From positions 1 through 27,723 of the IMG/VR virus record IMGVR_UViG_3300040801_002175: a stretch of 27,723 nucleotides of DNA; one strand, 5' to 3'. Numbering within the stretch: the stretch's first letter is position 1; each line of letters opens with the position of its first letter. The position numbers and the translations under genes are program-made. Origin of the DNA: a virus. Below, in pieces: positions 3,311-19,944 of this stretch. Under the pieces are notes generated by a model. The model searched no databases. It saw only the letters and a program-made list of their open reading frames with translations, and was not told the origin of the DNA.

Positions 3311-4041
3311 TTCCAAATTGCGTTGCAATAGTTGCACCAGCCCTCCTTAGTCAGCTCCCTTTTCTTACCTTGAGCTTCGCAACCCGGGCAGAGGTCGTTG
3401 TCATCCTCTAAGCTGTCCCAATATGCCTTGGAGAAGTCTTTGCCGTAGCTCTTGCCGTAGCTCTTGCCGTAGCTCTTGCCGTAGCTCTTGCCTGCATAGC
3501 TTGTGTACACTTTCTTAGTCACGTTCTCATCCAGCATATCAAAGAACTCATCGGGCAAATCGGGCGTCTCAATCTCAAAGGGGATGTTAAGATACTTCAG
3601 CCCGGTATCGGGTAGCCAAACATCTACTTTCATCACTCCCTTTTTGTTGGAGATAACCCGGAAGAAAAACCCGTCATCGTTCTGCGCGTGGATGTGGCTG
3701 TCCCACATGGTATCGTCCTGAGCGCTCGGCTCGACTCCCATATTAACATGAGAATGCCAATGTAGGCGCAGGTCCTGAGCCTCCTCACCCAACTCAGCGT
3801 ACAAATCCAGTGTACCTTCAGGGGAGATTTCGGTAGTCGTAGAATGTACCTCCTGTTTAGGGAAGTACATATCCTTGAGCAGAAATTCCCTATTACTCAG
3901 GCGTTCGACCGTACCAAAAGCCCCTACCTCTGTGTCGAAGTAGTCAGTAGCGGCGGTGATCTTGCGCAAGGCTAACGGGGTGATAATTAATTTGGGGGTG
4001 AAGGTCATCACTAGCTTCACCGTTTCACTTGTTCTCCTCAT
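3307..4041 (-). CDS. JAMM/JAB isopeptidase with C-terminal zinc ribbon
   Basis: A 244-aa protein with a complete JAMM zinc-metalloprotease motif: Glu38 (TEVGAFG), then His96-Ser97-His98, seven residues, Ser106, two residues, Asp109. This family removes or matures ubiquitin-like proteins (Rpn11, Csn5, bacterial BilC and Cap3), so the expected role is Ubl processing or deconjugation in the cytoplasm. After the catalytic domain comes a low-complexity linker of four SYGK repeats (residues 186-201), encoded by four perfect 12-bp repeats. It is followed by a zinc-ribbon-like module with CxxC at 218/221 and 236/239. The ATG overlaps the E2-like gene stop by 4 nt, arguing for co-translation. The zinc ribbon may be a substrate or E2 adaptor (inference). 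Confidence 0.92.
   Translation of the reverse strand: MRRTSETVKLVMTFTPKLIITPLALRKITAATDYFDTEVGAFGTVERLSNREFLLKDMYFPKQEVHSTTTEISPEGTLDLYAELGEEAQDLRLHWHSHVNMGVEPSAQDDTMWDSHIHAQNDDGFFFRVISNKKGVMKVDVWLPDTGLKYLNIPFEIETPDLPDEFFDMLDENVTKKVYTSYAGKSYGKSYGKSYGKSYGKDFSKAYWDSLEDDNDLCPGCEAQGKKRELTKEGWCNYCNAIWK
3443..3490 (-). repeat. Four perfect 12-bp tandem repeats (SYGK linker)
   Basis: The 12-bp unit CCGTAGCTCTTG (plus-strand reading) occurs four times without mismatch. It encodes SYGK x 4 in the linker of the JAMM protein. Being in-frame and perfect, the array is likely to change copy number without breaking the gene. Confidence 0.95.
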
Positions 4042-5201
4042 GCTTCAGGCCATCTGTCGTAAGTCGCTCCTGCCGGATCGGAGGGATTTACGGATTCGAG
4101 AAATAGGATGCAAACATCTACTGCGGTTGCCCAATCCGACATAGCGCGGGCCTCCTCAATAGCAAGTTCAAAGTCACCAAAGCAGGCTTTACCGTTGCCT
4201 TGGACGTGCGGGTGATGGTCCTCATTCCAATATCCCTCCACTCTGCGGGTGCGGTTGTTAAACCGCACATAGAGCTGGCGATCCAAAGGGATGGAGATGT
4301 CCATATCCCCGAGTAGGTATTCGTCGCCCGTGTCGGGGTTTGTGAACGTCATGTCAGGGCAGTGCGCCACGATGTTGGAACCCAAAAGGAATACTTCGGA
4401 AACCTTTGGAAAGGCCCGAATCTTGTCAAGCTGACTTTGCACCAACTCTAGCGGGTTGAGCGTGTCAAGATGTTTGGATAGCCCGCTCAGCTCAAAGACT
4501 GTTTGCTCCCGGGTTTTGACTGACTCCTGAAAAGCTCGGCGGCGGTCCTCAATTTGCTGAGCGAGCTGAGTTGCCTGAGCTTTGAGGTTATCCACCTTGT
4601 CTTTGTAGCCCCGGATAATAAACTCAGATGCTGCTTTTTGCGGGTCGATCTTGTCTTCCCGTTCTGCTATGTCCAGCACCTCGGACAAAGCGTCTACACT
4701 CGCAGTGTAGATGTGCAGACGGATGACATTGCCTTTTTTGGACACCACAGGCCAACCCTCCCGGCAATAAAAGACTTCGCCGTCTTTAGGGGGAGAAAAT
4801 TTATAGTCTCCGCTAATCCCATTGATGGAATAGGGAGGCGGGTATCCGTTCTCAATTTTGGGCATGTATACCACCGCGTCGAAGCCCTCTTCGGGTTCTT
4901 TTGTGGTGGCCAATACAAACTCGCCGAGTTCGCGCAGCTTAGAGGCTATCCCAGTTTGGGGCCAGTCCATGAAGGTAACTGGCTTGCGGGGTAGCTCTCC
5001 GGTCGGTGAGAAAATGGTGATGTTCGGCAATGAGTCGTGTTGTTGGCCGAAGCCATCCGGGTATTTATCCATGATTTCTTTAGGATAAAAATACCCAAAC
5101 AGCCCGTCAACCTCAACGGGGTTGCCATTATCGGGGGCGAACTCTTCGATCACCCCTTCCAGTTTCTCACCCGGTATGAATACCAAGTGTTCGTGTGACA
5201 T
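4038..5201 (-). CDS. E2-like conjugating enzyme with coiled-coil middle
   Basis: A 387-aa protein whose last ~75 residues carry the prokaryotic E2-like (UBC-fold) signature. HPH at 330-332 is followed by VQGNGKAC with the candidate catalytic Cys340, then FGDFELAIEE, a hydrophobic helix, and ESVNPSDPAGA near 369-379. The family transfers an activated ubiquitin-like protein from E1 to a target through a Cys thioester. Residues ~205-255 are rich in K/E/Q with an apparent coiled coil. The N-terminal ~190 residues are Pro/Gly-rich and unrecognised, and could select the target. It lies between the E1-like gene (11 nt upstream) and the JAMM gene (4-nt overlap). It is longer than a minimal E2 (~150 aa). 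No RING-type E3 gene is visible nearby. Confidence 0.85.
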   Translation of the reverse strand: MSHEHLVFIPGEKLEGVIEEFAPDNGNPVEVDGLFGYFYPKEIMDKYPDGFGQQHDSLPNITIFSPTGELPRKPVTFMDWPQTGIASKLRELGEFVLATTKEPEEGFDAVVYMPKIENGYPPPYSINGISGDYKFSPPKDGEVFYCREGWPVVSKKGNVIRLHIYTASVDALSEVLDIAEREDKIDPQKAASEFIIRGYKDKVDNLKAQATQLAQQIEDRRRAFQESVKTREQTVFELSGLSKHLDTLNPLELVQSQLDKIRAFPKVSEVFLLGSNIVAHCPDMTFTNPDTGDEYLLGDMDISIPLDRQLYVRFNNRTRRVEGYWNEDHHPHVQGNGKACFGDFELAIEEARAMSDWATAVDVCILFLESVNPSDPAGATYDRWPEA

Positions 5202-8789: not shown

Positions 8790-8839
8790 AACCCGCGATG
8801 GCTTCGACGCCTACCGTCTTATTCCAACGGTCGCGGGTT
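8790..8839 (-). ncRNA. Three-way-junction element B
   Basis: On the minus strand: a 9-bp outer stem AACCCGCGA/TCGCGGGTT, an inner hairpin CCGT...ACGG (GACGG core), and a small second hairpin GGC-GTCGAA-GCC. It begins 6 nt after the stop of the 61-aa gene and runs into the leader of the next unit. Compared with element C, the second hairpin shows compensatory changes (GGC/GCC versus TGC/GTA). A termination or RNA-processing role is inferred from position. Confidence 0.65.
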
Positions 8840-8845
8840 AGGATG

Positions 8846-9031
8846 CTACGCTACATTTACCGGGCGCTTGTCCAGATGCTGCCCGTTATCGAAATGGTAA
8901 CGGGTTCCCCCAAAGGGAAGGGGGGATTCTTTGATCGGCTCCAAAGACTTTACGCGGCTGGAAAGATACTCCTCCGCTTTCTTCTGAGACGAAAAATAGG
9001 CGGCGTTATTTACTGAATAAACCCAATTCAT
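8846..9031 (-). CDS. Hypothetical protein (61 aa)
   Basis: A 61-aa protein starting MNWVYSVNNAAYFSSQKKAE, with a basic helical middle and no recognised motif. It lies 12 nt after the preceding gene and is the last gene before element B. Confidence 0.6.
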   Translation of the reverse strand: MNWVYSVNNAAYFSSQKKAEEYLSSRVKSLEPIKESPLPFGGTRYHFDNGQHLDKRPVNVA

Positions 9032-9043
9032 AATAGAGTTATT

Positions 9044-9247
9044 TTAAATGATTTGATAATGTTCCCAATTTAAAATGGCATCAACCCTATCGGATACCTT
9101 CTCTTGCATATCCGATAAGGCCAAGATTTCGATAAGGAGGAGACGGGCGTTAACCCGTTCTTCTCCGGAGTAAAGCCCTTCGCTTTCAAGGCGTTCAGCC
9201 TCCTCAAGGTGTTGGGCCACCCGGTTAAACAGTTGTTTTGCTACCAT
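9044..9247 (-). CDS. Hypothetical helical protein (67 aa)
   Basis: A 67-aa largely helical protein (VAKQLFNRVAQHLEEAERLE). No family is recognised. Its ATG overlaps the upstream stop by 7 nt. Confidence 0.65.
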   Translation of the reverse strand: MVAKQLFNRVAQHLEEAERLESEGLYSGEERVNARLLLIEILALSDMQEKVSDRVDAILNWEHYQII

Positions 9248-9432
9248 TTGAAAGCAATTAGCGCTTCCTCATATTCATGAGGAGACAGGTGGAAAGATAT
9301 GTTTAAACTCCATTCTCCCCCGATACGGGATTGCCGGAGTTTTTTGTTGCGGGAGATACACGCCCGCATAGCTTCGGGGAAACCTCCCTGAATTTTCACT
9401 ATTCTTCCGGTTATTTTCTCAATAATTTCCAT
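9241..9432 (-). CDS. Hypothetical protein (63 aa), first gene after element C
   Basis: A 63-aa protein starting MEIIEKITGRIVKIQGGFPE, basic, with no recognised domain. The start is placed by the conserved leader (TTATTTGGGATATG) ending exactly at this ATG, as for the genes at 8758 and 9994. Confidence 0.7.
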   Translation of the reverse strand: MEIIEKITGRIVKIQGGFPEAMRACISRNKKLRQSRIGGEWSLNISFHLSPHEYEEALIAFKW

Positions 9433-9468
9433 ATCCCAAATAATTTTAGAGATTGATAAAAAAAATAG
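9433..9468 (-). promoter_or_regulatory. Conserved leader C (TTTGGGATATG type)
   Basis: The minus strand reads TTTTATCAATCTCTA then AAATTATTTGGGATATG. It is almost base-identical to leader D at 9995 although the genes behind them are unrelated, so the conservation concerns the DNA or RNA signal itself. Confidence 0.65.
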
Positions 9469-9515
9469 AACCCGCAGTTACATCGAAGCATACCGTCATT
9501 ATACGGCTGCGGGTT
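9469..9515 (-). ncRNA. Three-way-junction element C
   Basis: On the minus strand: a 9-bp outer stem AACCCGCAG/CTGCGGGTT, an inner hairpin CCGT-ATAATG-ACGG, and a short second arm TGC-TTCGAT-GTA. It starts 6 nt after the stop of the basic-protein gene. It is followed by CTATTTTTTTTATC, a T-run that would suit transcription termination, and then leader C. Confidence 0.7.
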
Positions 9516-9521
9516 TAGGCG

Positions 9522-9815
9522 CTATTCGTAGTTGTAGCCGTGATATATGGGTAAACCGTCTATCACTTCCACATCGAAGCGCTTTCGATGGGAATTATAA
9601 GGTTTTGCCGCGTCATTGTGCGCAAGCTGGTGTGCAAAATCACTGTATTTGCATTTTGTCTTACTCCGCGCCCGCGCCCCGTTCCCCCGGCGGTGATTGC
9701 GGACAGTCTTGAGGGAGTTGACATCCCCTATTTCCGTCCGGCGGTCGTGTTCTTTTGCAGCCCGCCGCGCCTTTTTGGCTTTGCGGAGAGCCGTTATTTT
9801 TTTGTTGCGTCCCAT
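9522..9815 (-). CDS. Highly basic protein (97 aa)
   Basis: A 97-aa protein. The first ~65 residues are dominated by Arg/Lys (MGRNKKITALRKAKKARRAA), followed by a KCKYSDFAHQLAHNDAA segment and an acidic/aromatic tail. This fits nucleic-acid binding, but no fold is recognised. Its ATG overlaps the upstream TAA by one base (TAATG). Element C follows directly. Confidence 0.75.
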   Translation of the reverse strand: MGRNKKITALRKAKKARRAAKEHDRRTEIGDVNSLKTVRNHRRGNGARARSKTKCKYSDFAHQLAHNDAAKPYNSHRKRFDVEVIDGLPIYHGYNYE

Positions 9816-9994
9816 TATTTCGGCGTTTTAACCACCCTTACCTGCCCGGGAAATTTCTTTTCCAGTCGGTTCAGGGTAAACTTTTTGGAAAATCTTATCT
9901 CCCCTTCCGGGGTGTTAACTACAAACTTATCACGGTCGTGCTCTCGGCACGCTTCCGTGCTCATCTTACTGAAAATTGCACTCTTTTTTTTCAT
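9815..9994 (-). CDS. Small basic protein (59 aa)
   Basis: Read by hand. The ATG at 9994 ends the conserved leader D; the 59-codon frame closes with TAA overlapping the next ATG (TAATG). The product begins MKKKSAIFSKMSTEACREHD, has FVVNTPEGEIRFSKKFTLNR in the middle, and is strongly basic. A small nucleic-acid-binding or ribosome-associated protein is possible; there is no recognised family. Confidence 0.7.
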   Translation of the reverse strand: MKKKSAIFSKMSTEACREHDRDKFVVNTPEGEIRFSKKFTLNRLEKKFPGQVRVVKTPK

Positions 9995-10031
9995 ATCCCA
10001 AATAATTTTAGAGATTAATAAAATAATTCAG
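9995..10031 (-). promoter_or_regulatory. Conserved leader D (TTTGGGATATG type)
   Basis: The minus strand reads TTTTATTAATCTCTA then AAATTATTTGGGATATG, matching leader C except for one base and its 5' flank. It links element D to the 59-aa gene. Confidence 0.65.
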
Positions 10032-10079
10032 TACCCTAGCCCGGTCGTGAACCGTCGCGCCCTGTGACGAGCTAGGGTA
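10032..10079 (-). ncRNA. Three-way-junction element D
   Basis: On the minus strand: a 9-bp outer stem TACCCTAGC/GCTAGGGTA enclosing about 30 nt that can form two hairpins around a GACGG core, including CGGT-TCACG-ACCG. Unlike A-C no gene precedes it. It marks the end of the 1.2-kb gene-free region and may be the 3' end of that transcript. Confidence 0.6.
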
Positions 10080-11240
10080 TATTCTTCTATTCCTGTCTTA
10101 AAGTTCTTTTCAGGTAGGCGCGTCGCTATAACAGGTTGCCTATTATCCCTTATTCATTCCCCGTAGCGGTCGGGGCATTTACAAAACAGCTAACCGATTT
10201 AGTACAGGTATATCGGTGGCAACCCCTAACCCCTACGCTAACCGTAGGCCATAACCCTCCCTCAGGTTGTGGAGTTGTTTCGCTGATCGACATCCTAAGC
10301 CAAACCGTTCTAAACTCCCCAATTATATATAACATAGGCCGTATATACAAAAGAGGAATTTGTTTAGTAAGACAAAATAAATGTCTGCAATTTTTGATAT
10401 GTATTAAGGGCTAAAGCCCGGCGTTCCCCTGCACTTGTAAGGCAATACAGCTATATTGCTATTCAGGTAGGCCCAACGGTCAAAAATAAGCCGAAAAAAC
10501 CGCACAAAGTACGCATAATACACGCAAAAAGCCGTCTGTGACTTTTAGCAGGTATTTTACACACTCTGCTTACTGTTTACAGGCAATAGGTATTCATTTC
10601 CCCGCCTACGGGAGTTAATGCGCTACGGACGCAAAATCCTATATTGTTAGACTAATCCCACTCACCCCGATGAACCAACGGGCGTTGTTGTCGTTGGGGT
10701 ATTCATACGCGCAGCGCTCTCGCAATACACACGTATCTTGCAGTTCATAGTCGTTAGAGCTTGCGCCCAAACACACTATTAAATAGTCTATCCTGCAAAC
10801 CAAACTTGTAATGTACAGCCCCAAGTCATATCTAAGGTGGCACTCCGTCACAGGTTGCGCACGCCTCACAACCCGCTACCTTGCTAAGAGGTACTAAATT
10901 CCCGTCGATAGGTACAGACCTCGCAGCGGACTTTCGCCCGTCCATTCGGATACCGACCCCCATTTTAAAACTGCCTAATACAGTCTATTTTAGAGAGCTG
11001 CCCCGGCACTGCTCAGCGACGCCGTCCTCCCCAAGCCCCAAAATTTAGGTAGTGCTTGGATCATAGGCCGTCCTGACTAAACAGACTCCTAGCTTTCCCC
11101 ACAGAAGTGGGTACACCAGACTTGTTTGCATACTAAGCGCTAACTTAGCACACCCTATACTAGATACGTTGTGAACGCACCTAGTTTAGACTTTTGCGGG
11201 TAGCTACCGAAGACCGGAATACTATTTTTCCCGCTTTGTA
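10032..11240 (-). ncRNA. Candidate large structured non-coding RNA
   Basis: About 1.2 kb with no protein-like frame on either strand, in a genome otherwise packed with overlapping genes. It is dense in short perfect hairpins: CCTACG-CTAAC-CGTAGG (10231), GGGCT-AA-AGCCC (10408), GCAATA-CAGCTA-TATTGC (10442), CCGAT...ATCGG (10193), GGTAGCTACC (11199). A promoter at 11245-11276 points into it on the minus strand and element D closes it. This resembles the size and setting of large ornate phage RNAs such as GOLLD or ROOL, but I cannot assign it to a known class and some hairpins would form on either strand. Alternatives are a decayed region or a replication/packaging site. Confidence 0.4.
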
Positions 11241-11244
11241 TTCA

Positions 11245-11276
11245 CAAAGGTAAAAAACATTTCGCACAATTCCAAA
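11245..11276 (-). promoter_or_regulatory. Bacteroidota-type promoter P1
   Basis: On the minus strand TTTG, 20 nt, then TACCTTTG, matching the Bacteroidota primary-sigma consensus (TTTG at -33, TAnnTTTG at -7). The expected start is near 11238, driving the gene-free 1.2-kb region. Promoter P2 has identical boxes and spacing. Confidence 0.75.
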
Positions 11277-11477
11277 AAATTATTGGTATTGTTTGGAAAA
11301 AAAATCCTTTAGCTATCATTGCAACCCTACCGCGAGCAGGGTATATTAAGGCGCTCCGGTCAAAGGAGCACGCCACAACTACACACCTAGGAAAGCTAAG
11401 AACCTAAATTCAGAGCAATTCCCCAAACATGCCAATTATCAAAGGAATGATGCAAAGGTTCTTTAACCGTTGCTGTG
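11277..11477 (-). ncRNA. Possible short RNA between promoters P2 and P1
   Basis: The transcript from P2 would begin near 11471 and cross this gene-free stretch. Two clear hairpins are present on the minus strand: GGCGTGCTCC/GGAGCGCC (11350-11374) and ACCCT-GCTCGCGGT-AGGGT (11324-11342). A TTTTTTTT run follows about 20 nt later, too far for a textbook terminator. It could be a ~180-nt small RNA or simply the 5' leader of the larger RNA. Confidence 0.3.
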
Positions 11478-11509
11478 CAAAGGTAAGAAACGTTTCCCAA
11501 ACATCCAAA
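11478..11509 (-). promoter_or_regulatory. Bacteroidota-type promoter P2
   Basis: On the minus strand TTTG, 20 nt, then TACCTTTG, the same -7 box and spacing as P1 233 bp away. The spacer sequences also share TTTGG...GAAA-type words, hinting at duplication of a promoter cassette. Confidence 0.75.
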
Positions 11510-11643
11510 CAATCCCGAAAGATTATTTGTATTGCGAGAGAATAGTTTTCTCACCTGCCTGCCGCAAATATGCAAACAATAACCGAACAATGCAAACACT
11601 AGGCAAGTAATAAGACAGAGAGAGTAATAAGGTACTGATTAAC

Positions 11644-11808
11644 AGGTAGTTAGAATAAAAAAAAGTTTAGGAGTGCGATATTAAGAATGGAGTGATATGA
11701 AGGATATTTAGGGAAAGGTAGGGGTGATTGAAAATTGTTTAGGATAGTAGGGGAATTATTGGGTATATTTGGGCGGGAGTGTTGTATTGTTGAAATTTTT
11801 ATAGGTTA
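11644..11808 (+). other. C-depleted, G-tract-rich intergenic stretch
   Basis: In these 165 nt the plus strand has only two C (11675 and 11774) but many G, with G-tracts at 11711, 11721, 11750, 11761, 11771 and 11775 able to form a G-quadruplex. No gene is present. It lies between the divergent promoters, so a replication, R-loop or transcription-boundary role is possible; none is proven. Confidence 0.6.
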
Positions 11809-12310
11809 CTACAAATAGTTTAAGAAATAGGATGGTACAAACATTGTGGGAATGCCCGGGAATAAAGGTCTTCCGAGCGATTGAGCGCCTTAATACGCTG
11901 TTCCCCAGACCGTTACAAAAGCAATTCATACTTACTATTTCTATTTAACATAATACAAATTATATGCTGTTTTGGGCTAAATGGCTGATCCTCAAAGGGT
12001 TGTCTTTAGGGGAAATGTTTTATATTACCCTCCGCCGCTTTTTTCCTCACAAATCCAACGGGGGGAGGGTGTTTCCCCAACGGCAAAAGGGACGGGGCAG
12101 TTATTAACGGTCCTCAGCACACACACAATCCTCACACCACTTTCCCCACATCACACGGGTGAATCCCCACAAACACTCTTAGAGGCCCTTAGAGACGCTG
12201 TATGACGCCTAGGGGGTGTATTTTGGTGAGTATACAAAGGGGGGGGGCTATTTATAGGAGACTTAAAACCAAGGGGGCGCTCTTGAAACAAATTTTTTTA
12301 AAAAATCCCG
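11809..12310. other. Gene-free divergent control region
   Basis: No credible gene. It holds GAGCGCCTTAATA at 11883-11895, an exact inverted copy of 11344-11356. It also holds a G/C-rich hairpin CCCTCC/GGAGGG (12028-12069) and a C/A-rich stretch of CACAC and CCCCACA words (12118-12175). Two frames of 64-74 codons here look non-protein-like. An origin could sit here, but I see no iterons or convincing DnaA boxes. Confidence 0.4.
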
Positions 12311-12371
12311 AAAAAGTAGCGTTAGCTCTCAAAAAAAGTGCCGCAGGCTTCAGAAAAGTAGCGTTAGCTCT
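12311..12371 (+). repeat. Phased ~21-bp repeats upstream of plus-strand promoter
   Basis: AAAAGTAGCGTTAGCTCT occurs exactly at 12312-12329 and 12354-12371, 42 bp apart. Between them, at 21-bp phase, lies a diverged copy with AAAAAAAGTGCCGCAGGCTT. Each unit is an A-tract plus a mini-palindrome (AGC-GTTA-GCT, GCC-GCA-GGC). The spacing is two helical turns per unit, typical of regulator sites on one DNA face. Confidence 0.75.
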
Positions 12372-12401
12372 TGACATTGTCAAAAAAAGCTTGTAACTTC
12401 G
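12371..12401 (+). promoter_or_regulatory. Putative promoter of the plus-strand operon
   Basis: TTGACA at 12371 and TAACTTCG at 12394-12401, with 20 nt between TTG and TA, the same spacing as P1 and P2. TAACTTCG differs from the Bacteroidota TAnnTTTG box at one base. It abuts the phased repeats and faces the gene at 12567 and the packaging module. Confidence 0.55.
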
Positions 12402-12518
12402 CCTAATCATAACAGGCAGTAGTGATTATCACGGTGCTTAACTTTATGATAGTTTTACAAATCCTTAATAAAGCCCAACATTATTTTACATTATTGCTCT
12501 TATACAGAATGCCAGTAA

Positions 12519-12538
12519 GTAAAATCCCGGGATTTTAC
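12519..12538 (+). promoter_or_regulatory. Perfect 20-bp palindrome (candidate operator)
   Basis: GTAAAATCCCGGGATTTTAC is a perfect inverted repeat centred 38 bp upstream of the first plus-strand ATG. Its half-site core TTTTAC also appears at 12452 and 12484. A dimeric repressor or activator site is the natural reading; the regulator is not in this window. Confidence 0.65.
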
Positions 12539-12566
12539 AGTACACCACCAAATTTTATTCTCAATC

Positions 12567-16672: not shown

Positions 16673-16988
16673 GCAGTTTTCATTACTACAGGCTGAGAAT
16701 ATCCGACTACGCTCGGAGAATGCCCTACTTGCTTCTGAGAATCGCAAGCTTCGGATTGATCTGAACAAGCTCTTGGATGCGCTCAAGTCAGTCTGGGAGT
16801 CGCTGCCGTTTGTTCTACAGTTAGTGTCGCTATTTAAGGGGAAGTTTACGTGGCTTAAAGTTCTAGGAAACTTGGGCAAGATAGCCGCGTTACTGAATGC
16901 AATTATAGGAAAGTTCAAAGATGGTAAGGAACTCGCAGGGGATTTGGCTCAACTCTCAAGTATTCCGGGAACCAGCGATACACTTTGA
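16665..16988 (+). CDS. Coiled-coil protein next to terminase (107 aa)
   Basis: A 107-aa protein from the ATG at 16665, overlapping the previous stop by 8 nt. Residues 5-45 form a clear heptad coiled coil (LLQAENIRLRSENALLASEN). A hydrophobic region LPFVLQLVSLFKGKFTWLKV follows, with a helical segment LGKIAALLNAIIGKFK. It overlaps the terminase start by 68 nt. Candidates are a small terminase or an oligomeric membrane-associated protein. Confidence 0.7.
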   Translation, partial: NSEQFSLLQAENIRLRSENALLASENRKLRIDLNKLLDALKSVWESLPFVLQLVSLFKGKFTWLKVLGNLGKIAALLNAIIGKFKDGKELAGDLAQLSSIPGTSDTL

Positions 16989-19944
16989 GAAATACGGTTA
17001 CTACACCGATGCCCCGAAAGGGACAATTTCTTGGAGAAAATACTGGGATGAGGAGTTAAGGAGATGTATTGAGGGACACGAAGTAAGTGGTGCTCGTATT
17101 ACGGGTGACCACTATTTCTATTTGAACTACTACCGCATCATGAAAAAGGAGGGCAATCGCAAAGTTGAGGGCTTTCCTGACTTCTGGGATGGGGACTATA
17201 ACTACTTTCACGCCGTAGACATTGCCCGATTCGGCATCTCCAAAGAAGAACTTAAAAAGCTGCACTTGGAGTGGGAGCCCCTTTGGATAGACGGGGGACA
17301 TCACATCATGGTGGCTAAGGCCCGTAGAAAGGGGTTTGCACAGCCCAACACAGAGCCAGTTCTGACCCCGTCCGGTTGGAAGCTTATGGGAGATATTAAA
17401 GTTGGGGACTTAGTAATGACCCCGTCTGGTAAGCCTACAAAAGTTTTGGAAGTATACCCCCAAGGGGAGCGGGAGGTTTTTGAAGTCGTATTACATGATA
17501 ATAGACGTACTCGGTGTTCTGAGGACCACCTGTGGAGGATAAAGACAAGCCGTGGAGACAGAGTAGTACCCACATCTTTTTTCTTAAATAAAAAATTAAT
17601 ACGTAACGCTGGCAAGGAAAATAGCTACTATGCCTACCATTTACCGGAAATAGAGCCCCTTGATTTTGAAGAAAAGGAGCTTCCAGTAGACCCGTATGTG
17701 CTGGGTGTTTTGTTAGGTGATGGATGCTTAACGGGTAGTAACACTGCCATATCTACGGGGGATTACGAAATAGTAGAGGAGCTACAAAATAGGCTTCCCT
17801 CCGCTAACATTAGGAAACAGAAGAATGATTTTGGTTACTCCATAGCTTATGGTCTTCCAAAAAACCCACTGAAAGAAAAGCTGCGAGAATTAGGAGTTTG
17901 TACGTATAGTTACAGCAAGTTCGTACCAAAAGATTATTTGTATAGCTCAATTAGTCAGAGACTTGAGCTTTTGAGAGGCCTCATGGATACCGATGGTACC
18001 TCCAGCCCCTGCGGGACGGTAAGGTTTAATACTTCCTCACCACAACTCAGGGACGATGTGTTATTTTTATTCAGGAGCTTGGGCTGTAGAGCACGGTGGT
18101 ACCAGCCCAAACCAGCAGGGTGGGCCAAAAGGCCTCATTATGTAGTCAGTGCTGTATGTGATTTGGATGTATTTAAACTGGACCGTAAGCTTAAAAACAT
18201 CAAGAAGGGTAGAAAGTATGGCTATAAGAAAATAGGCATCAGGGAGGTTAGGTCTTTGGGATATACTGAGGAACAGACCTGTATCTTGGTAGAAGACCCG
18301 GAGCATTTATACATCACAAAGGATTTTATACCCACTCACAATAGTTACAAAAACTCCGCCAAGGCCGTAAACACCTACAACACGGTCAGAAAGTCGCTTA
18401 TCCTATTCACTGCTTACGAAAAGAAGTACCTTTTTCCAAACGGTATCATGACTATGGCTCTCAATGGGCTTTCTTTTTTGTCTGAGCATACCGCTTGGGG
18501 CAAGAAAAGGGAATACGTAGATCGGCAGGACCACGTCAGGGCTTCTTACCGGGGAAAGAATAACGGCATAGAATTCGAGAAGGGATATAAGTCAGAGATG
18601 ATGGCCCTCTCCTTTAAAGACAGACCCGGTGCGGCCAGAGGTAAGGACCCGTACTTAGTAATCATGGAGGAGGCCGGGGAGTGGGATGGGTTTCTATCTT
18701 CCTTAAAAGCGACCGAGCCCTCTACCAGAGATGGTTCTACCATGACCGGGCAGATTTTGGCTTTTGGTACTGGCGGAGACATGACCTCTGCCTCAGTTGA
18801 CTTTGCTGATGTGTTCTACAACCCAGAGCTGCATAATTTTCTACCATTCGACAATGTCTGGGATGAGGGAGCTTCCGGAAACTCCTGCGCCTTTTTCTTT
18901 CCAGTCAACCTCAATAACCCAGACTATACAGATGATCAGGGTAATTCTGATTTAGAGGCGGCCAAAAAAGCTGAAATGGAGGAAAGACAACGCATCGTAG
19001 AGCGTTCAAAAGGTGCAGTCAGTATGGCCAAGCACCTATCGGAGTACGCTCTTTCCCCCCAAGAGGCCTTCTTGGTGGATAACATAAACGCTTTCCCCGT
19101 TGATTTATTGCAAAGACGCCTCAATCAGCTCATGGCTGACGATAAGGCCAAGATTGGGAAGCCCTACATCCTGCAAAAGGAAGACGGTAAGGTATTGGGC
19201 ATGCCTGATCTTCAAGGTACCCTAAAGCCCATCATACATTATAGGGCTGAAGAGTTAGACCAAAGTGGGGCAGTAGTGGTCTATGAAGAGCCCATTCCTA
19301 ACCCACCACCCGGCACTTACGTAATTGGCTATGACCCCTATCGCCACAATACCTCACAGACGGATTCATTAGGAGCTGCGTTTGTGTACAAAAACCCCAC
19401 TAACCTGAGCCCGAACTCTGATATTATTGTAGCCGAATACGTAGGCAGGCCCAGAACTACGGATGAGTATGAGCGTAGGCTGGCCCTATTGGCTGAGTAC
19501 TACAACGCTACTATCCTGTATGAGAATGAAGTGAATAACACCGAAAAGAATTTTGAATACTGGAATAAACTCCATCTTTTAAACCGCCAGCCCGACTCTC
19601 TAATTAAGGCCCACGTCAAAAAAAGTAAGGTCAAAAGAGAGTTCGGTATGCACATGACCAGTAGTTTTATTGAGGCAGGAGATAAATATATAACTAATTG
19701 GTTACTCACTGAAAGAGAGAAAACTAAGGATGGTGAACCTATTTACAACTTAGATTTGTTATACTCTATAGGGTTGATTGAAGAAATGATCAAGTACAAC
19801 CCCAAGGGGAACTTTGACCGCCTCATGGCATTTAGGCTCGTCATGTTCGCCAGAGAAGAAGAAAAGCTAAATAACAAGGCTGGCCAGAGCCGGGAACGAA
19901 AGGTAATTAATCAACTTCTTGAGATGAAAAAATACTCCCGATGA
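16921..19944 (+). CDS. terL: Terminase large subunit, interrupted by an intein
   Basis: A 1007-aa precursor; after removal of a 335-aa intein (residues 140-474) the extein is 672 aa, normal for crAss-like TerL. The N-terminus has GYYTDAPKG and RITGDHYFYLNYYRI. The ATP-binding loop is ARRKGF at 134-139, joined by splicing to SYKNS. The Walker B strand YLVIMEEAGEWD has Glu583/584. The RNase H-like nuclease begins with VIGYDPYRHNTSQTDS (Asp805). It translocates and cuts DNA into proheads through the portal. Because the intein splits the ATP-binding motif, the enzyme should be inactive until splicing. The stop overlaps the portal ATG (ATGA). Confidence 0.95.
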   Translation: MVRNSQGIWLNSQVFREPAIHFEKYGYYTDAPKGTISWRKYWDEELRRCIEGHEVSGARITGDHYFYLNYYRIMKKEGNRKVEGFPDFWDGDYNYFHAVDIARFGISKEELKKLHLEWEPLWIDGGHHIMVAKARRKGFAQPNTEPVLTPSGWKLMGDIKVGDLVMTPSGKPTKVLEVYPQGEREVFEVVLHDNRRTRCSEDHLWRIKTSRGDRVVPTSFFLNKKLIRNAGKENSYYAYHLPEIEPLDFEEKELPVDPYVLGVLLGDGCLTGSNTAISTGDYEIVEELQNRLPSANIRKQKNDFGYSIAYGLPKNPLKEKLRELGVCTYSYSKFVPKDYLYSSISQRLELLRGLMDTDGTSSPCGTVRFNTSSPQLRDDVLFLFRSLGCRARWYQPKPAGWAKRPHYVVSAVCDLDVFKLDRKLKNIKKGRKYGYKKIGIREVRSLGYTEEQTCILVEDPEHLYITKDFIPTHNSYKNSAKAVNTYNTVRKSLILFTAYEKKYLFPNGIMTMALNGLSFLSEHTAWGKKREYVDRQDHVRASYRGKNNGIEFEKGYKSEMMALSFKDRPGAARGKDPYLVIMEEAGEWDGFLSSLKATEPSTRDGSTMTGQILAFGTGGDMTSASVDFADVFYNPELHNFLPFDNVWDEGASGNSCAFFFPVNLNNPDYTDDQGNSDLEAAKKAEMEERQRIVERSKGAVSMAKHLSEYALSPQEAFLVDNINAFPVDLLQRRLNQLMADDKAKIGKPYILQKEDGKVLGMPDLQGTLKPIIHYRAEELDQSGAVVVYEEPIPNPPPGTYVIGYDPYRHNTSQTDSLGAAFVYKNPTNLSPNSDIIVAEYVGRPRTTDEYERRLALLAEYYNATILYENEVNNTEKNFEYWNKLHLLNRQPDSLIKAHVKKSKVKREFGMHMTSSFIEAGDKYITNWLLTEREKTKDGEPIYNLDLLYSIGLIEEMIKYNPKGNFDRLMAFRLVMFAREEEKLNNKAGQSRERKVINQLLEMKKYSR
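17338..18342 (+). other. Class 3-like intein with LAGLIDADG endonuclease, in terL
   Basis: 335 codons inserted between KGF and SYK of the terminase ATP-binding motif. It starts AQPNTEPVLTPSGWKLMGDI, so position 1 is Ala, not Cys/Ser. Block B CSEDHLW has His64 and Trp66, block F TCILVEDPEHLY has Cys315, and the end IPTHN has Thr333 and Asn335, followed by Ser+1. Trp-Cys-Thr at these places is the hallmark of class 3 inteins, where the internal Cys replaces the N-terminal nucleophile. The homing endonuclease shows both LAGLIDADG helices: YVLGVLLGDG at precursor residue 259 and LLRGLMDTDG at 350. It looks intact, so splicing and homing are probably both active. Confidence 0.9.

Follow-up and report, generated by a model that had tools for sequence, protein, structure and literature searches.

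The locus raises the question of what a phage keeps in 1.2 kb of seemingly gene-free DNA (positions 10032-11240, minus strand) at the point where its leftward and rightward genes diverge. The whole stretch of DNA analysed, hereafter the window, comprises 27,723 nt (27.7 kb) and is the record of a crAss-like phage, of which it represents a fragment. Leftward genes, small and numerous, occupy most of the initial 10 kb, while the rightward block encodes the large terminase subunit (phrog_6681, E 7e-139), the portal and the major head protein, the last sharing 50% identity with its counterpart in Flavobacterium phages (Fpv group). The terminase gene (16921-19944, plus strand) specifies 1007 aa and contains an intein-like insert with a LAGLIDADG domain (residues 346-418); the terminases of relatives mostly comprise 677-750 aa. 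Seventeen terminases aligned with that of the window shared just 41-49% identity, so that no near relative was at hand for comparison. Relatives were retrieved by terminase alignments; as lone query, the terminase recovered none in viral_contigs. Phages of this kind reach high abundance in gut viromes (PMC8375218), though our literature search yielded no paper on their noncoding RNA and no title dealing with either noncoding RNA or dif sites in this group.

A preliminary description of the stretch had reported that it contains no protein-like frame, and this was borne out by codon usage. In a codon model with 20 training genes, all 21 ORFs of at least 30 aa within 10020-12560 scored between -0.23 and +0.03 nats/codon, the range of spurious frames. 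As controls, 23 spurious antisense ORFs gave a mean of -0.096 nats/codon (sd 0.063), and the training genes, scored by leave-one-out, ranged from -0.04 to +0.20 nats/codon, with 18 of the 20 being positive. The longest stop-free run in 10032-11240 (98 codons) was equalled by 92 of 300 shuffles, as expected by chance, and stops were spread at random density across all six frames. Because every ORF of this size scored as spurious, the noncoding zone extends over 2.5 kb (10020-12560) between the leftward and the rightward gene blocks. The zone is real, and 10032-11240 constitutes its left half; the 1.2 kb described earlier is indeed gene-free but was drawn too narrowly, as the zone continues to about 12560. 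A perfect 18-nt direct repeat (12312-12329 and 12354-12371, plus strand) immediately precedes a sequence resembling a promoter (12371) for the rightward genes.

Two explanations would nevertheless retain a coding origin. A run of very small genes (<80 aa) might be invisible to the coding score, and two of the 20 training genes did score slightly below zero. As all 21 ORFs fell into the spurious range and none of the six zone ORFs scanned by hmmscan hit a profile with an E value below 0.14, we regard such genes as improbable. Even less probable, in our judgement, are decayed genes, i.e. earlier small leftward genes whose frames were lost. In favor of this explanation, the adjacent leftward genes are numerous and small, and 41 nt (10078-10118) were 88% similar to a coding segment of a Bacteroidota gene. 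This similarity (10078-10118 and L248:1501-1539; E 8.8e-5), which was found in one of 395 genomes and thus amounts to about 0.03 when corrected, probably arose by chance. The hmmscan result, the random stop density in all frames and the fact that ORF-poor DNA is kept at this place in relatives argue against decay as well.

At the 5′ end of the stretch, the consensus promoter P1 reported previously (11245-11275, minus strand) was confirmed as the sequence TTG-N20-TACCTTTG. Its duplicate P2, which had been missed, lies 233 nt upstream (11478-11508, minus strand), reads likewise TTG-N20-TACCTTTG and harbors the palindrome GAAACGTTTC within its spacer. With a spacer of 20 nt each, both sites agree with the housekeeping promoter consensus of Bacteroidota (TTG, 19-21 nt, TANNTTTG). 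P1 and P2 are identical at 29 of 36 positions across a 36-nt stretch, the maximum in 40 shuffles being 24, and by this measure their duplication is beyond chance. In the region 10000-12560, two TTG-N18-22-TANNTTTG sites were observed against 0.16 expected. They are the sole matches in the whole window, for which 1.25 are expected; at this scale the count of two is at chance level and weighs against the interpretation favored below. No further promoter of this form was detected ahead of the leftward gene at 9994. Two relatives (L034 and L183) possess a leftward promoter close to this junction as well, and in each it is directly followed by a perfect hairpin, CATAGTTTTACTATG, which is identical in both.

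To what extent the minus strand folds was judged at several scales. Over its whole length it reached a fold z of -4.7 versus -1.9 for the complement, and z values of -4.2 versus -1.6 when shuffling was confined to 60-nt blocks. Coding stretches of the same window gave -4.9 and -5.0; thus, the whole-length value is not decisive and was rejected as proof of structure. Elsewhere in the window, 4000-5200 and 8800-9990 were far more stable than their shuffles whichever strand was folded, ORFs included, as were L142:200-1400 and L185:3500-4700 in relatives. In 120-nt segments (step 60), the interval 10032-11240 stayed at the coding background. Using 110-nt segments (step 25; 2210 segments on both strands), the three most over-stable ones, which by rank were 11126, 11451 and 11076, all lay on the minus strand at P1/P2. 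The first and the third span the initial 165 nt of the putative P1 transcript. Most of the second (11451-11560) falls upstream of the putative P2 start (near 11471), so that the transcript proposed below does not account for it. The remaining segments were mostly of ordinary stability, comparable to coding DNA.

The 5′ domain predicted from this fold (11085-11195, minus strand) comprises the hairpins 11190-11154 and 11153-11128, with no spacer between them, and 11120-11088. Its helix probabilities were 0.93-1.00 and its z was -5.8, a value for limits set after viewing the fold. Further downstream a long hairpin of 27 pairs is predicted (10504-10569, minus strand; mean pair probability 0.96; z -2.7 for 10440-10580). 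Only one short-range inverted repeat of at least 12 nt is present in 10032-11240, namely 10032-10079. Of the many perfect hairpins noted at the outset, those in the first 150 nt and the 27-pair hairpin (10569-10504) held up, while the stretch generally folds like coding DNA. Repeated CAACCTG-type words, once suggested to be structural motifs, are attributable to chance, since seven-mers occurring at least three times numbered 2 versus 1.97 expected.

At the opposite end, the stem-loop 10032-10079 (minus strand; -24.8 kcal/mol; z -3.1 to -3.7) resembles a terminator. It possesses the G+C-rich stem of an intrinsic terminator and no adjacent T-run, and no minus-strand terminator was called at 10079-10032. 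The first leftward gene (59 aa; 9818-9994, minus strand; ATG 9994) begins 38 nt beyond this hairpin. Directly ahead of its start codon we found element D (9997-10016, minus strand), in agreement with its reported position at the 3′ end, albeit just beyond the end of the stretch; a second copy (9435-9454) precedes ATG 9432. Neither the 59-aa gene nor the neighbouring protein (9522-9815) has a relative in viral_contigs. Given the missing T-run and the nearby ATG, a long leader is no less likely than a separate RNA, and it fits the stretch no worse than would a giant RNA standing alone.

We tentatively favor, with somewhat less than even confidence, the interpretation that the stretch, as the left half of a noncoding control region between the two gene blocks, is a long untranslated, 5′-structured leader of the leftward operon, driven by tandem promoters. 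P2 and P1, as tandem promoters of the Bacteroidota type, would fire leftward, and the RNA would remain untranslated for about 1.2 kb (candidate transcript 10032-11241, minus strand, both ends of which we infer). Its initial 150 nt would form a compact cluster of two directly adjacent hairpins followed by a third one, the remainder being loosely structured. The RNA may either continue into the leftward operon, whose first ATG is at 9994, or partly end at the hairpin 10079-10032; continuation as a leader is favored. The 5′ cluster may act in cis, either on the polymerase in the manner of a put-like antiterminator or on the stability of the RNA. This interpretation gains from the position and strand of P1 and P2, their duplication, the over-stable segments beside them, the strand asymmetry of the whole fold, the absence of a further such promoter ahead of 9994, the promoters with adjoining hairpin in L034 and L183 and the ORF-free stretches of relatives described below. 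A leader of 1.2 kb is very long given the compact phage genome, which counts against it. The minus-strand noncoding transcript from P1 envisaged in the preliminary description is plausible, given that no coding signal was seen, the promoter is duplicated and the local fold with the greatest over-stability in the window lies just downstream of it, whereas the kinship with GOLLD and ROOL raised there was not supported.

The rival to a leader at the RNA level is a large structured RNA that acts on its own in trans, similar in its working to GOLLD or ROOL, extends from P1 to the hairpin 10079-10032 and is perhaps the fast-evolving occupant of a slot used for RNAs by many crAss-like phages. Its own promoters, the strong 3′ stem-loop and the strand asymmetry of the fold speak for such an RNA; a 3′ hairpin without T-run and the confinement of exceptional folding to the 5′ 150 nt speak against it, as do the searches for known families. 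A gathering scan of the window against Rfam gave no match, and at E<=10 the region 9980-11980 yielded only rli30 (17.7 bits, E 4). No tRNA was detected in the 27723 bases of this fragmentary record, which agrees with the initial remark that none is adjacent. Homologues of the stretch were found neither by blastn against phages and plasmids nor in 25 related virus records, 193 loci or, apart from the 41-nt match, 395 Bacteroidota genomes; the 18-nt pattern of the first hairpin had no homologue in viral_contigs. Lacking a match to the Rfam covariance models, a nearby tRNA and a DNA homologue, the stretch cannot be assigned to GOLLD or ROOL, a kinship that had been raised with caution as to class. 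On balance, we consider a stand-alone RNA unlikely.

Relatives offered a further view of the same place. ORF-free stretches (no ORF of at least 80 aa) were scored 1.5-7 kb upstream of the terminase after removal of eight redundant loci. Stretches of at least 500 nt were present in 36 of the 48 non-redundant loci, window included, a count in which genes <80 aa may hide and in which the stretch touches the contig end in some loci. The longest, with 2152 nt, was that of the window, and by the same criterion there was none in the relatives' late genes (0/34). We also compared the strands of 18 gene-free stretches, a selection of those seen in relatives and in phages containing motif 1 (see below), using eight shuffles each and truncating long stretches to 1200 nt. 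In 16 of them, z was lower on the strand that carries the leftward genes, in keeping with a stand-alone RNA; L161 showed the opposite and L121 equal values as printed. Block shuffles of the gene-free stretches of L142 and L140 gave z values of -9.2 and -8.4. However, ORF-bearing leftward segments were equally over-stable (L142 200-1400, z -12.0; L185 3500-4700, z -13.0; -11.5 and -11.3 after block shuffles), while late genes of relatives ranged from +1.4 to -2.1. Hence the fold statistic is not specific, and this finding, too, disfavors an RNA acting on its own. Over-stability appears to mark the leftward half of some genomes generally. It is conceivable, though rather improbable, that the ORF-poor DNA where the two blocks diverge serves crAss-like phages as a standing RNA slot, in which each lineage maintains a large structured noncoding RNA or leader that changes quickly, the transcript described here being an orphan class with no relative in the collections searched. 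If so, such a common site of structured, untranslated RNA would provide a handle on expression switching in crAss-like phages.

Some phages of this group do contain a conserved RNA candidate in such stretches. Four loci (L005, L010, L047 and L071) have a short noncoding block in common, termed motif 1, which is located in noncoding stretches at L005:1669-1800, L047:1358-1526 and L010:4825-4990 (minus strand) as well as L122:1989-2190 (plus strand) and in further loci. An exact 17-mer of the motif occurred in 33 viral contigs, blastn matched 18 phage records, in which no annotated gene covers the matched part, and both halves were found in 43 loci, 35 of them distinct. In an alignment of 21 of the 35 distinct loci, mostly those with short inserts, the structure comprised 17 pairs including a pseudoknot, with 99.4% of cells paired and 46 double-change cells versus 14.7 in shuffles. 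Any locus retrieved through the 17-mer is necessarily constant within it, so that invariance there is partly due to selection; the covarying pairs (helices 2 and 4) fall outside the 17-mer. In the four motif-bearing loci that were tested, Rfam matched nothing at the motif. Model R1 matched 4/36 and 1/38 related loci, 1/26 whole records and 0/296 Bacteroidota genomes. As judged from covariation, motif 1 is an unannotated pseudoknotted RNA in many crAss-like phages from gut and other sources, and its occupation of such stretches argues for a stand-alone RNA. The window itself, searched with filters off, gave nothing credible (best 13.8 bits, E 0.44, outside the stretch), and the stretch was rejected as a member of motif 1. 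Another short conserved noncoding block (L047:1084-1139, L071:2167-2210, L068:4279-4335, L065:1480-1535) lies at variable distance to motif 1. In phage cr118_1, a Group I intron (L005:19049-19346, plus strand) lies between two segments that both carry the annotation major head protein.

Finally, the region may function as DNA, i.e. as the replication origin of a plasmid-like phage and/or as its locus for dimer resolution and partition, any RNA being incidental. In the right half of the noncoding zone we identified a 28-mer (11943-11970, minus strand) whose XerD arm, TTATGTTAAAT, agreed at 11 of 11 positions with a list of published dif sites (PMC2731167). The 23-letter dif pattern was present in 40 bacterial contigs, mainly of Proteobacteria (many Betaproteobacteria) and including one Bacteroidales genome and Dawidia soli; in all six genomes searched there was exactly one copy, as for chromosomal dif. 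By its arm and the single copy per chromosome, the 28-mer is identified as a XerCD dif site. The 18-letter core was absent from every fetched terminase relative except L148, in which dif lies at the corresponding place (L148:58-78). Its location in the zone suggests that dimers of a circular form are resolved there or that the phage integrates at the host dif. The GC skew changes sign at ~11.25-11.5 kb, 11250-12000 is AT-rich, and three perfect 13-nt inverted repeats surround the zone (9653-9665/10366-10378, 10717-10729/11528-11540 and 11344-11356/11883-11895; P=0.002 versus shuffles). The first of these would also allow RNA pairing with the message of gene 9522-9815. While these features point to a function of the DNA, the skew also tracks gene direction, the dif site is situated outside 10032-11240, no iteron array was seen, and neither the promoters nor the strand-specific fold would be explained. 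We therefore rank a DNA-level control locus, like the stand-alone RNA, after the leader and hold each of the two to be unlikely. Both motif 1 and the dif site are directly testable in cultured members or in RNA-seq data.

Several known systems invite comparison. GOLLD and ROOL are large, phage-borne, noncoding candidates driven by promoters, as is the RNA proposed here; they often lie near tRNA genes and have extensive structure supported by covariation. One ROOL has 659 nt and many GOLLD RNAs exceed 800 nt (PMC12286853), whereas our candidate, at ~1.2 kb, is longer, its body does not fold exceptionally and no tRNA is nearby. With control regions of phage-plasmids that carry XerCD sites, the locus shares a dif site in a noncoding region at a skew change; it differs in that the window is a fragment and the plasmid-like life putative. 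Like motif 1, which resides beside the leftward genes in several relatives, it is a noncoding stretch in the same phage order. The PUT RNA of phage HK022 consists of two adjacent hairpins near the start of the transcript and lets RNA polymerase pass terminators. The leader favored here belongs to another host group, has another sequence and would begin its hairpins ~50 nt after the start, and antitermination is proposed by analogy; it nevertheless resembles PUT in the two adjacent hairpins predicted near the start of the transcript (11190-11154 and 11153-11128).
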